Source of the DNA: Lysobacterales bacterium
GTDB lineage: Bacteria; Pseudomonadota; Gammaproteobacteria; Xanthomonadales; S139-57
Reading direction: 5' to 3'
DNA length: 32,749 nucleotides
Assembly: GCA_015485125.1 (NCBI GenBank)
Contig: WFUE01000053.1
Location: forward strand, 1-32,749
Shown here: in pieces, positions 6,755 to 18,463 of the stretch
Layout: each line of letters opens with the position of its first letter
Position numbering within the stretch: the first letter of the stretch is position 1
Position numbers and translations under genes: made by a program
The notes under the pieces: model-generated
The model's database searches: none
What the model was told of the DNA's origin: nothing
Seen by the model: the letters and a program-made list of their open reading frames with translations, nothing else

Positions 6755-7687
6755 TCAGTCGCCGCCAGCAGCGGTTTCCAGGGCCTTGCCGATGGCCTTG
6801 GGGCTGGACATGATATTCATGAAACTGTTCTTGCCCATCATCTTCAGGTCCGGTCGGTGCATGGCCATGCGGAAACGCATGTGCAAAGCCACCACTTCCT
6901 TGCCATCCACCAGGATCTCAATAGGCAGATAGGCCGTGGTCTTCAATGATTCGAAGTCCACATTGCTCATGACCCAGGCATCATCCATGTGCTCATCCCC
7001 TCCCTCGGGCATCTTCAACGACACGCCAAAGATGGTTTGTTCATTGGGCAGATCCAGTCGATAAACCTTGTGCACACCGCCCTTGCCGGCAGTCAGATTT
7101 TTCTCCAGTGTTTCCACTGCCTCCTTGTGGCTGTCGTACTCCGCCAGCTCATAGGGATCGTCGAAATACTCCATGCCGAAGGTATAGTGGTATTTTCTCA
7201 ACTTCTTGGCCGTCATCCCCTTCTTGGAACCAAAGGTTTCTGCAGCGCCAATGGCATTGGCCAAGGCCTTGGAAAGAAAAGCAAGATCGGAATTCAGGCG
7301 ATAGGCATTGGCCACGTAGGCCGGGTTGGGATAGGCAACCTGAATTTCATCGCCTACCTGGGTGATAGCCACCCGCCAGGGTGCCGCGAAAGCCCCGCGC
7401 TCACTGGCCGTGGCGGCCTTGATCAGATCATCACGGGTGACAATCAGCACATGGGCCTTGTCCACATGGGTGCCTTCATAGGGCGTGTATTCCCCCACCA
7501 GTTGAAAACCGGCCTGGGTCAGTTTGTCCTTGACCTCCGCTACCTTGGCGTCGAAATCACCACCTGTGGTTTTTTCGGCCAGCACAAAAGGCTTGAGCCG
7601 TTCGGCAGCCTGCACGGAGGCGGACCAGGATACCAGCAACAACATGGTCAGCAGGGCAAAGCCCATATATTGTTTCAATTTTTTCAT
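6755..7687 (-). CDS. Exported DUF302-like protein
   Basis: A 310-residue protein with a signal peptide (MKKLKQY, hydrophobic FALLTMLLLVSW, likely cleavage after VQA). Residues about 35-140 show the DUF302 pattern: a helix VAEVKDKLTQAGFQLVGEY, a strand, and a conserved-looking PNPAYVANAY segment. The remainder ends in a Met-rich tail and is not assigned. The start is ATG 7687, after a GGGGGGAAT purine stretch; the track's 32 extra N-terminal codons would bury the signal peptide. It is flanked by terminators on both sides, so it is transcribed alone. It is probably periplasmic, and no enzymatic role can be proposed. The DUF302 label is tentative. Confidence 0.72.
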   Translation of the reverse strand: MKKLKQYMGFALLTMLLLVSWSASVQAAERLKPFVLAEKTTGGDFDAKVAEVKDKLTQAGFQLVGEYTPYEGTHVDKAHVLIVTRDDLIKAATASERGAFAAPWRVAITQVGDEIQVAYPNPAYVANAYRLNSDLAFLSKALANAIGAAETFGSKKGMTAKKLRKYHYTFGMEYFDDPYELAEYDSHKEAVETLEKNLTAGKGGVHKVYRLDLPNEQTIFGVSLKMPEGGDEHMDDAWVMSNVDFESLKTTAYLPIEILVDGKEVVALHMRFRMAMHRPDLKMMGKNSFMNIMSSPKAIGKALETAAGGD

Positions 7688-7820
7688 ATTCCCCCCAGAT
7701 CGTGGTTGATCAAAACAGGTCGATACAGACCAGCAAAGAGGATAGGTTCGCAAAGCCACTTTGCCTATACCACCATATGGCAAGAAATCAGCATTATCTA
7801 ATGCAGAAAAAACGCATAAA

Positions 7821-7847
7821 AAAACCCCGGCCGATAGCCGGGGTTTT
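7821..7847 (-). terminator. Rho-independent terminator after the TonB-dependent receptor
   Basis: A perfect 11-bp stem, AAAACCCCGGC and GCCGGGGTTTT, with a five-base loop. A run of seven A on the plus strand gives the T-tract for minus-strand transcripts. It lies 22 bp after the stop codon of the receptor. Confidence 0.92.
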
Positions 7848-7868: not shown

Positions 7869-10800
7869 TTAGAAATCGTAGCGAATGCCGATTTGCGCGC
7901 CCCAGCGGGACTGGCCCGCACGGTCACTGCGACTGAAGGGCTGTGTACGGCCGTTCCAGTCGTAGATATAACGACCAGTGGCTTCATCGATGCCCTCGAA
8001 GTCCGCCACAGCGAAGGTCTGGAAGCTGGCCTGCTCGATATGACCCCAATCACTGTTGATCATGTTGAGCACATTGGTCAGGTTCAGGTAGACCACGCCC
8101 TTGCCAGGACCGAAGAACGGAATTTCCTGGGTGATCTTCATATCCAGCTGGGTCACCCAGGGAGAGCGGTCGCTGTTGCGCGGCACCACCTGCCCCATGT
8201 ATTCACGCAGACCCGGCGTGTTGTTGACAAAGTCGAAGAACGCAGCTTCTTCGGACGGATCCGTGAAGATCACGTCACCCGGGCCAGACGGCACATAGAA
8301 CAGGTCGTTGCTGGAACGACGGTCACCGTTGGCGTCATTGCCAAAGATGTAGCTGAACGGCCGGCCGGACCGGTTCTCGTAGAACAGGGTCACGGTAGTG
8401 GCATGGCCTTCGAAGAAATACTTCTTCCAGGTGGCCGTTGCAATAATCCGGTCACGAATTTCGTAATCGGAGGCTGCAAGCTGCGGCTCGTTGGGGTTGA
8501 CATTGGGCAGGTAGCCCCAGTTGGAAATGGCACGGGAAGAACCGCCATCGTTGATTTCACGGGTATCCATGCCGGTGTAACCCACCATCCAGGACAAGCC
8601 TTCGTTCCCTTCCATGGCCTTCTTCAGGGACAGGGTCCAGGAAGTGGTCGCGCCCTGGGTGGTATTCTCCAGCAACACGACATCATTGAAGTCACGGTTG
8701 TTGTTGCAACGCTGTGAACGGTCATTGTTGGGGTCACACCAGTAGGACAGGCGGCCGTCCGGCATGGTGCCTGTGGGATCTCCCAGGTTCAGGTGACGAT
8801 ACTTGATGCCGTACTTGGTTTCTGTGTGCAGCACTTCGGCGCTGGCGACGATACCGTTCCAGGGCAATTCGTGGTCGATGGCCAGGTTGGACTTCCACAC
8901 GGAAGGTTGCTTGAAGTCCGGGTCCACCACATCCACGTCCATGCGCGCGGCACCACCGGGGCGCGGCAGGTTGTCCGGGTCGGCGGTGATGGGCACCAGT
9001 GAACCGGAGTAGTCGGAGTACGTGGTCACATTGCCACCGGGATTGGTGAAGGGGTTGGACAACCAGACGCCAGCGGTGGAACCCATGAACAGACCAAAAC
9101 CACCACGGATCTGCGTGGGACGATCCAGACCGAGGTCATAGTTGAAGCCCACGCGCGGCTGCAGCACACCATTGCCGTCTACAGTCGTGTTGTTGGGGAA
9201 ACCGTAGAACTGTTCGAAAGCCGGATTGTACAACGGCTTGTCATCCGTGGTCGGCAGGTCATAACGCAGGCCGGCCACCACCGTCAGCTGATAGTTCACG
9301 TCCCAGGTATCCTGCAGGAACAGCCCCCAGTTGGCCAGTGCCCAGTCGGCGGTGGGCAGCGGGTCATTCGGATCGGTGCCGATGCGATAGGAATAGGAAC
9401 GGTAATTACCGTTGGCAAAATCGTCGATGGAACGGAAACGGTAGTACCCCAGGCTGTCAAAGACAAACAGGTTGTTGATGTCGTTCAGCTTGTAGTCGAA
9501 ACCACCACGCAAGGTATGTGCACCCTTGCGCAAGTCGGCGGCAAAGAACACCGTGGTGGTGTCCACCTGCAGGTCATTGGCCTGGCGGAAACGCTCGGTA
9601 CCGAAATGCACTTCTCCGGTCACGCTCTCACCGGCACCGGAAGTTCCCGGCACGCCATCCACGCGGAAGTAGGGCATGCGGGCGTTGTTGTCCGGATACT
9701 TGTGGAACTTCATCCGGGCGATGTTCAATTCGGTGGACAGGTTGGGCGTCCAGTCAGAGTAGAGCTGAAGGGCATAGTTCTCGGTATCAAAGGTATTGGT
9801 GTACCAGTGCGAGCTCAGGGAAACATCATAGTTGCCCCGGTTACGGATGTTGATTTCCTTGCCCAGCGTGCTGTTGTAGCGGGCGGTCAGGCGATGGTTC
9901 TCATTGATGTTCCAGTCGATTTTCACCAGCGTCTTCTTGTCACTGTTGACCAGTTCGCTGGCGTTGAAATCTCCAATGTTGGCTGCACCATAGCCGGCAG
10001 CAATGTCACGGATCTGCTGCAAGGCGGCAGCATCCGGGGTAAAAGCCGGATCCAGCGCGTTGGTGTTTTCAAACTCCTCATAGTTGAGGAAGAAGAACAG
10101 TTTGTTCTGGATGATGGGGCCACCAAAGGTCACGCCACGGGTCCATTCCTCGAAGGTATCAAAGGCATTGCCGTTTTCATCATCTCCGACCATGGAGTCA
10201 TCACGGTAGACATAATACAGACTGCCATGGAACTCGTTGGTACCACTCTTGGTCACGGCATTGAGGTCACCGCCCACGAAATTGGACTTGGAAACATCAT
10301 AGGGAGAAATGCCAATGTTCAACTGGTCGATGGTTTCCAGCGAGAAAGGCTGGCCACGGGCCATGGAAGGCAGACCACCACCTTCAAGACCAAACTCGTC
10401 ATTGGTGGGCACACCATCGATGGCGATATTGTTGTAGCGGTTGTTCTGACCGGCCACGGAAATGGTGTTCTCTTCCTTGTCCAGCACAGTGATGCGTGGA
10501 TCCATGCGGGCAAAATCGGCCAGGCCACGAGAGATGGACGGGGATGCCTCGATCTGATCACGCGTAATGGTGGTACCGGCACCCATGTTGGAAGGATCGA
10601 AGATGCCGGATGAAGCCATGCCCACCACTTCGACCTTGTCCAGGGCGGCTGTATCCGGACTCAGCACTACGTCCAGATTCTTGTCCTTGCCCAGTTCCAG
10701 ATACAGGTCAGTGGCGGATTCGGTTTTGAAACCATCCTTGCTGACCGTCACCTTGTAGGGACCTCCCACACGCAGACCCTTGGCCAGAAAGTGGCCGGTC

Positions 10801-10997
10801 GCATTGCTGGTCACGGATTTCGTGGTACCGGATGGCGTGTGCACAATGGAAATGGTCGCGCCATCCAGCGCAGCGCCATTGGCATCACGAACGGTTCCAC
10901 TGACGGAAGAGGAGGTGGTTTGTGCCATGGCATTCGACGCCAAGAAACCAACCACAACCAAAGAGGCGAGCATGCCTTTCAGTTTATTCCACATCAT
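7869..10997 (-). CDS. Oar-like TonB-dependent outer-membrane receptor
   Basis: A 1042-residue receptor. The signal peptide ends AMA, before QTTSSS. An N-terminal carboxypeptidase-regulatory-like beta domain (VSGTVRDANGAALDGATISI) spans roughly residues 30-115. A plug domain follows at roughly 130-270, with FARMDPRITV and AIDGVPTNDEFGLEGGG. The rest is a large 22-stranded-type barrel ending in aromatic IGIRYDF, as outer-membrane proteins do. This is the Oar/carboxypeptidase-like subgroup; the cargo is not predictable from sequence. No TonB box is obvious. The start is ATG 10997 (ATGATG); the track's extra 26 codons lie in the leader. A Pho box and a -10 element sit about 80 bp upstream, implying expression under phosphate limitation. 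A terminator follows the gene. Confidence 0.92.
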   Translation of the reverse strand: MMWNKLKGMLASLVVVGFLASNAMAQTTSSSVSGTVRDANGAALDGATISIVHTPSGTTKSVTSNATGHFLAKGLRVGGPYKVTVSKDGFKTESATDLYLELGKDKNLDVVLSPDTAALDKVEVVGMASSGIFDPSNMGAGTTITRDQIEASPSISRGLADFARMDPRITVLDKEENTISVAGQNNRYNNIAIDGVPTNDEFGLEGGGLPSMARGQPFSLETIDQLNIGISPYDVSKSNFVGGDLNAVTKSGTNEFHGSLYYVYRDDSMVGDDENGNAFDTFEEWTRGVTFGGPIIQNKLFFFLNYEEFENTNALDPAFTPDAAALQQIRDIAAGYGAANIGDFNASELVNSDKKTLVKIDWNINENHRLTARYNSTLGKEINIRNRGNYDVSLSSHWYTNTFDTENYALQLYSDWTPNLSTELNIARMKFHKYPDNNARMPYFRVDGVPGTSGAGESVTGEVHFGTERFRQANDLQVDTTTVFFAADLRKGAHTLRGGFDYKLNDINNLFVFDSLGYYRFRSIDDFANGNYRSYSYRIGTDPNDPLPTADWALANWGLFLQDTWDVNYQLTVVAGLRYDLPTTDDKPLYNPAFEQFYGFPNNTTVDGNGVLQPRVGFNYDLGLDRPTQIRGGFGLFMGSTAGVWLSNPFTNPGGNVTTYSDYSGSLVPITADPDNLPRPGGAARMDVDVVDPDFKQPSVWKSNLAIDHELPWNGIVASAEVLHTETKYGIKYRHLNLGDPTGTMPDGRLSYWCDPNNDRSQRCNNNRDFNDVVLLENTTQGATTSWTLSLKKAMEGNEGLSWMVGYTGMDTREINDGGSSRAISNWGYLPNVNPNEPQLAASDYEIRDRIIATATWKKYFFEGHATTVTLFYENRSGRPFSYIFGNDANGDRRSSNDLFYVPSGPGDVIFTDPSEEAAFFDFVNNTPGLREYMGQVVPRNSDRSPWVTQLDMKITQEIPFFGPGKGVVYLNLTNVLNMINSDWGHIEQASFQTFAVADFEGIDEATGRYIYDWNGRTQPFSRSDRAGQSRWGAQIGIRYDF

Positions 10998-11073: not shown

Positions 11074-11107
11074 ATTGTAGTGCGTAATTATGACAGTTTT
11101 GCTACCG
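11074..11107 (-). promoter_or_regulatory. Predicted PhoB-activated promoter of the TonB-dependent receptor
   Basis: On the minus strand, CGGTAGC-AAAA-CTGTCAT matches 14 of 18 positions of the Pho box CTGTCAT-AWAW-CTGTCAY, with the second half exact. Ten bases later lies TACAAT, a good -10 box at the canonical distance. No -35 is needed at PhoB-dependent promoters. The transcript would start near 11067 and have a leader of about 70 nt. Confidence 0.62.
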
Positions 11108-11137
11108 CGAGTTAACAAAAAATTGAGCCATGAGCCG

Positions 11138-17424: not shown

Positions 17425-17442
17425 TTGTAATCTGTTCGTAAC
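17425..17442 (+). promoter_or_regulatory. Possible weak Pho box before pstS
   Basis: TTGTAAT-CTGT-TCGTAAC has the 7+4+7 layout of a Pho box, and its two heptamers share T-GTAA, but only about 11 of 18 positions match consensus. A poor -10 (CACTAT) ends at 17460. It is supported mainly by the identity of the gene 62 bp downstream. Confidence 0.35.
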
Positions 17443-17503: not shown

Positions 17504-18463
17504 ATGAAACTTTCAGCGCTGATCGCATCTTCCCTGCTGCTGGCCACCACGGCCCAGGCACAGGTTCAAGTGGACCCCAAACTGCCGGAATACCAGCCAA
17601 CCGAAGGTGTGGCCGGCAACATCTCATCCGTGGGTTCGGACACCCTGGCCAACCTGATGACCCTGTGGGCCGAGGAGTACAAGCGCCTCTATCCCAATGT
17701 GAACATCCAGATTCAGGCCGCCGGTTCTTCCACCGCGCCGCCGGCGTTGACCAAGGGCACTTCCAACCTCGGCCCCATGAGCCGCAAGATGAAGCACAAG
17801 GAAATCGAGGCTTTCGAAAAGCGCTTCGGCTACAAGCCCACCGCCATTCCCGTGGCCATCGATGCCCTGGCCGTCTTCGCCCACAAGGACAACCCCATCG
17901 AAGGCATGACCATTCCGCAGGTGGATGCCATCTTTTCCTCCACCCGCCGCTGTGGCCATCCAGAGCCCATCAACACCTGGGGCCAACTCGGCCTGAAAGG
18001 TGACTGGGCCAGTCGCAGCATCCAGCTCTATGGCCGCAATTCCGCCTCCGGCACCTACGGCTACTTCAAGAAGCATGCACTGTGCAAGGGTGATTTCCGA
18101 AACGAGGTGAACGAGCAACCCGGTTCCGCATCCGTGGTGCAGGCCGTCTCTGCCAGCCTCAACGGCATCGGCTACTCCGGCATCGGCTACAAGACTGCCA
18201 GCGTCAAGGCGGTGCCATTAGCCAAGAAAACCGGCCAGCCCTTTGTGGAAGCCACGCCCGAGAATGCCGTGCGGGGCAAATATCCATTATCCCGTTTCCT
18301 CTACATCTATGTGAACAAGGCGCCCAACAAGCCCCTGCCGCCGCTGACGCGCGAGTTCCTCAAGATGGTGCTGTCCAAATCCGGTCAGGAAGTGGTGGTC
18401 AAGGACGGCTATATTCCCCTGCCGGCCAAGGTAGCGGAGAAGCAGCTGAAGAAACTGCTGTAA
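17504..18463 (+). CDS. pstS: Phosphate ABC transporter substrate-binding protein, PstS family (orphan)
   Basis: A 319-residue periplasmic binding protein. The signal peptide ends TAQA, before QVQVDPKL. The phosphate-contacting loops are visible: [11 protein letters not shown] near the N-terminus, [13 protein letters not shown], and the [11 protein letters not shown] segment. ATG 17504 follows GAGGA at good spacing; the track's 34 extra codons are leader. No pstC, pstA, pstB or phoU lies nearby, so this is a stand-alone PstS-like protein that may serve a distant transporter or act in scavenging. A weak Pho box lies upstream and a strong terminator downstream. Confidence 0.88.

Follow-up and report, generated by a model that had tools for sequence, protein, structure and literature searches.

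A conserved Pho box before the gene of an Oar-like TonB-dependent receptor suggests PhoB control and a probable role in nucleotide import

Many Xanthomonadales possess numerous TonB receptors that lack an assigned cargo. The gene for one such receptor, of the Oar-like type, lies in the 32,749-nucleotide stretch of DNA analysed here (the window), which is part of a 2.4-Mb draft genome of the Xanthomonadales (G000). Its locus raises two questions: which regulator controls the gene, and what does the receptor carry? A sequence-only reading had proposed a Pho box, followed after 10 nt by TACAAT, upstream of a large Oar-like receptor. The box, which agrees with the E. coli consensus CTGTCATAAAACTGTCAT at 14 of 18 positions, the gap, the -10 element and the receptor gene downstream were all confirmed in position on the minus strand, where the order upstream of oar is TTGTTAA ctcg CGGTAGC aaaa CTGTCAT aattacgcac TACAAT. 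The features are:

11118-11112, minus strand: TTGTTAA, candidate third half-site, set 11 bp 5' of the first half-site
11107-11090, minus strand: Pho box CGGTAGCAAAACTGTCAT (CGGTAGC-aaaa-CTGTCAT), two half-sites with an 11-bp period
11079-11074, minus strand: -10 element TACAAT, 10 nt (aattacgcac) past the Pho box
7869..10997, minus strand: gene of the oar-like TonB-dependent receptor, 1042 aa from the likely start
7818..7847, minus strand: intrinsic terminator, hairpin CCCCGGCTATCGGCCGGGG plus a T run, directly 3' of oar

The longest oar open reading frame begins at ATG 11075, within the TACAAT element, and the true start must therefore lie further downstream. Judged from the sequence, it is almost certainly ATG 10997, which is preceded by AGGG and opens the predicted signal peptide MMWNKLKGMLASLVVVGFLASNAMAQ. 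Automatic annotation may thus place the oar start 26 codons too early. The terminator past the stop codon indicates that oar is transcribed alone, and a similar hairpin is found 3' of oar in relatives. Downstream of oar (6755-7783, minus strand), the window also holds a 342-aa open reading frame with a signal peptide and no Pfam or NCBIfam match; its relatives were found in families f1, f7 and f8 only, and G000 and its genus-mate G001 have a second copy.

The oar product has the Pfam domains CarboxypepD_reg, Plug and OMP_b-brl_4. The carboxypeptidase-regulatory-like domain (PF13620) occupies residues 57-139, ahead of the plug, PF07715 and PF25183 were matched, and PF00593 remained slightly under its cut-off. 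An AF2 model built with 41 sequences reached a pLDDT of 85.5 and a pTM of 0.83, with a low-confidence N-terminus. By sequence, no near relative of the product was found in the PDB, where matches to the plug domain of Cir were weak; a fold search of the PDB with the model returned TonB-dependent receptors, FusA being the best match, followed by YddB, Cir and many others. Since these receptors carry differing cargoes, the fold leaves the cargo of the Oar-like receptor unnamed.

When both strands of the window were scanned, no second match of at least 14 of 18 positions to the Pho box consensus was found; random sequence of the same composition yielded 0.12 such matches per window on average, and a box with a -10 element at 9-11 nt occurred in none of 150 random windows. 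With a matrix derived from phoB and pstS promoters of relatives, the oar box scores 9.0 bits and ranks 7th of 65,464 window positions. The layout of the PhoB regulon, 11-bp direct half-sites and a -10 element at 10 nt, is present. The second half-site (CTGTCAT) is perfect and the first (CGGTAGC) is weak; in G001, the sole genus-mate, the first half-site is weaker still (CGCTAGT) and the third, TTGTTAA, is unchanged. Because of its weak first half-site the oar site taken singly is not convincing, but the comparative evidence is. A genome-wide search with the consensus was not decisive, as its 134 near-matches with at most 3 mismatches of 14 were about twice as many as those of a reversed-pattern control.

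The host genome encodes PhoB (TIGR02154, 326.8 bits; cut-off 296.2) and contains pstCAB-phoU. The Pho box of a pstS-family gene, 6.3 kb from the oar promoter, provides a positive control inside the window:

17425..17442, plus strand: Pho box TTGTAATCTGTTCGTAAC before pstS, the window's top score (16.5 bits)
17504..18463, plus strand: gene of a pstS-family phosphate-binding protein (PF12849; open reading frame listed from 17402)

The pstS-family product scores 284.8 bits against TIGR02136 (cut-off 206.6), and ATG 17504 is its probable, predicted start. The arrangement of a box, 10 nt and a -10 element is common to oar and to the host promoters of phoB (CTGTCATAAGGCGGTAAC-N10-TTCAAT), pstC (TTGTAACAAAATCGTAAC-N10-TAATAT) and pstS (TTGTAATCTGTTCGTAAC-N10-CACACT). 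A strong Pho-box-like site was also seen at G000:C124:8013-8030 (L003 1501-1534), 10 nt from TACCAT and right before an NADH dehydrogenase-like gene. As this locus came from a pattern search, the site may be there by chance.

Relatives of the receptor were found in Marinicella, Lysobacter, Xanthomonas, Dokdonella and others, and conservation of the box was surveyed with a half-site matrix trained on the phoB and pstS promoters of Xanthomonadales genomes, with zero oar sequences among them. The matrix was applied to 99 distinct oar loci, mostly of about 12,000-46,000 positions each, and three stretches inside genes per locus served as control (n = 297); best-site labels on the quick tree omit deduplicated loci and were left out of the counts. 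The stretch upstream of oar contained the best site of its locus in 45 of the 99 loci, as against 2 of the 297 control stretches, so that the proposed Pho box also held up before orthologues. Among the 67 orthologue sites of at least 8 bits, TAnnnT lies exactly 10 nt past the box in 51 and was never seen in more than 4 at any other spacing from 4 to 16. Orthologues with the box include those of Xanthomonas, Stenotrophomonas, Lysobacter, Luteimonas, Rhodanobacter, Dokdonella and Massilia; box and 10-nt spacing are kept across the Xanthomonadales and into the Burkholderiales. Thalassotalea and Paraglaciecola have rank-1 boxes without TAnnnT at 10 nt, and no good box was found upstream of oar in family f5, which comprises the nearest orthologues beyond the genus (49-50% identity). 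In family f8 (Marinicella; L014, L016, L021, L022, L026, L027) the oar promoters show a diverged box with the spacing kept, TTTTAACggaaTCTTCAC-N10-TACCAT, and in five f8 genomes PhoB falls slightly under the family cut-off, which may reflect co-variation of regulator and site.

The scan of the window also gave a promoter-like match in the same place:

11087..11115, minus strand: TTAACT-17-CATAAT with extended -10 TGtCATAAT, overlapping the Pho box

Here CTGTCATAAT would be the extended -10 of an ordinary sigma-70 promoter, with TTAACT at 17 nt; CTGTCAT would be part of the -10, and PhoB would not be involved. Both hexamers are unchanged in G001, but they are not conserved in orthologues outside it. 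The bases past CTGTCAT vary freely among the orthologues while the -10 element at 10 nt is kept, and the extended -10 is therefore not the element that selection maintains. Given also that the host pst and phoB promoters show the PhoB layout, we regard a sigma-70 promoter of this kind as improbable.

At a spacing of 18, TAnnnT was found in 22 of the 67 sites because of a second 11-bp direct repeat, GTTAA-N6-GTTAAC, which spans the -10 element and start of many oar promoters. It lies about 30-55 nt past the start of the box in L036, L037, L049, L052, L055 and others (for example at G030:C1:1590167, G012:C2:247407, G002:C35:118664 and G060:C1:882871), and in the genomes searched, with 0-1 mismatch, it occurred nowhere but before oar. 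Another OmpR-family regulator that recognizes similar 11-bp repeats could therefore bind the oar promoter, alone or together with PhoB. The second repeat is, however, absent from the window's genus, and a matrix built solely from phoB and pstS promoters picks out the upstream box, so that we consider such a regulator very unlikely. Taken together, these results make it highly probable that oar is regulated by PhoB, with predicted PhoB binding at the box and induction of the gene.

As regards the cargo, the sequence-only reading had suggested a phosphorus-containing compound, or a peptide or nucleotide carrying phosphate. In ten loci of Burkholderiales and Nitrosomonadaceae, oar is adjoined by a gene for an UshA-like lipoprotein 5'-nucleotidase (PF02872), which is located either downstream of oar or, on one strand or the other, upstream of it; this gene was found nowhere else among the fetched oar loci. 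Massilia and Undibacterium have an S1/P1 nuclease gene after oar and an adenosine deaminase gene nearby, and the Undibacterium locus additionally contains a nucleoside hydrolase and two permeases. NupC is encoded close to oar in Paraglaciecola, in Emcibacter and in one Burkholderiales genome. Genes for uridine kinase and an Exo_endo_phos nuclease adjoin oar in Paraglaciecola, while in Thalassotalea it has in its vicinity those for cytidine deaminase, pyrimidine phosphorylase, thymidine kinase, a nuclease and alkaline phosphatase. In Marinicella, a PhoD-like phosphatase gene lies upstream of oar and is divergent from it. Among the cargoes proposed, these neighbourhoods suggest nucleotides and single out no other.

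In most Xanthomonadales loci, ppnN, which encodes a nucleotide 5'-monophosphate nucleosidase (NF038390), is located immediately 3' of oar. An oar-ppnN operon was ruled out: almost every locus has a strong terminator between the two genes, which are therefore neighbours and not an operon, and the position of ppnN beside oar could be accidental synteny. Unlike most relatives, the window has no nucleotide gene adjoining oar, and such neighbours of oar are absent from its genus as well. In the window's genus ppnN lies away from oar and overlaps an alkaline phosphatase gene (ATGA), in G000 at C157 (L223 1411-2880) and in G001 at C189 (L222). In front of the G000 unit, a candidate Pho box stands 10 nt from its -10 element (CTGTAACGCAATCGGCAC-aaaagagagc-TAGGTT); G001 retains the box, with CAGGCT as the -10 element. 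From these promoter sequences, the ppnN-alkaline phosphatase unit is a probable further member of the Pho regulon. NupC is encoded in the host genome, and no convincing Pho box was found before nupC in G000 or G001. The sole PF02872 match of G000 resembles SoxB by sequence and was rejected as an UshA-like 5'-nucleotidase.

It is also conceivable that PhoB controls oar but that the nucleotide genes beside it are incidental. The receptor would then carry some other phosphorus compound (a phosphate ester, a phosphopeptide or a metal-phosphate complex, for example) or a helper molecule, for instance a cofactor. Conservation of Pho control extends further than that of any single neighbouring gene, the terminator sets ppnN apart from oar, and the PhoD-like phosphatase of Marinicella would suit any phosphate ester. 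Furthermore, the example of E. coli PqqU shows that the cargo of a TonB receptor of use at low phosphate may be a cofactor (PMC11658791). Against this, nucleotide and nuclease genes occur next to oar independently in Beta-, Alpha- and Gammaproteobacteria and in varied arrangements. We therefore judge a different cargo to be rather unlikely, though a serious contender, and a cargo derived from nucleic acids, to which the gene context points, to be fairly probable.

The Oar protein of Myxococcus xanthus, which our receptor resembles by name and class as a large TonB-dependent protein, is a TonB-dependent transporter needed for secretion of the protease PopC (PMC6434023). By analogy, the window's receptor might export an enzyme of phosphate starvation, secreted phosphatases and nucleases being typical Pho products. 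In contrast to the protease secretion served by M. xanthus Oar, the control and the neighbours of the window's oar point to import: inner-membrane nucleoside importers and salvage enzymes among the neighbours fit uptake, and no export substrate is visible. Of all the alternatives weighed here we give export the least credence, and we infer that the receptor is an importer.

Our preferred reading, which we hold to be reasonably likely, is that the receptor depends on TonB, is controlled by PhoB and imports nucleotides or fragments of nucleic acids. Upon phosphate shortage, PhoR would phosphorylate PhoB, which would occupy the repeats of 11-bp period at 11118-11090. Standing in for a -35 element, the bound PhoB would recruit RNA polymerase to TACAAT, yielding a short-leader mRNA of oar alone. 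The plugged beta-barrel, driven by TonB, would then import nucleotides, oligonucleotides or related breakdown products of nucleic acids into the periplasm, where phosphatases or nucleotidases would free the phosphate and nucleoside carriers would absorb the remainder. The evidence leans, if by a little less, towards an ancient family of such importers, shared by Xanthomonadales, Burkholderiales and some Alteromonadales, through which cells would obtain phosphorus from nucleotides or pieces of nucleic acid.

No TonB receptor known to us carries nucleotides or fragments of nucleic acids. Like oar, E. coli-type PhoB promoters have two CTGTCAT-like half-sites with an 11-bp period, which replace the -35 element, and a -10 element 10 nt on; in contrast to them, the first half-site of the window is degenerate and many orthologues add the oar-specific repeat at the start site. 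In Caulobacter crescentus, the PhoB regulon includes, alongside nucleases and phosphatases, TonB receptors for which uptake of phosphorus compounds has been proposed; the likeness to oar is one of regulation, in a different lineage, and the available part of that account assigns no cargo to any single receptor (PMC11208175). Tsx of E. coli is described in a 2024 review as a nucleoside-specific outer-membrane porin, and a term search of the same review, which treats TonB substrates, gave no TonB-dependent nucleotide carrier (PMC11658791). Tsx and the oar product both concern the outer membrane, but Tsx is a passive channel whereas the oar product is a plugged, TonB-dependent barrel. A literature search that covered few subscription papers returned nothing linking Oar to phosphate in Xanthomonadales. 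Hence, this type of control is already known, while the clade, its conservation and the assignment of a cargo appear to be new.

With this reading, a whole clade of receptors gains a regulator, PhoB, and a class of cargo, nucleic-acid-derived phosphorus. If it is true, dissolved DNA or nucleotides would enter the cell through a dedicated, energised receptor and not solely through porins after extracellular digestion, a matter of relevance to the phosphorus cycle of soils and waters.
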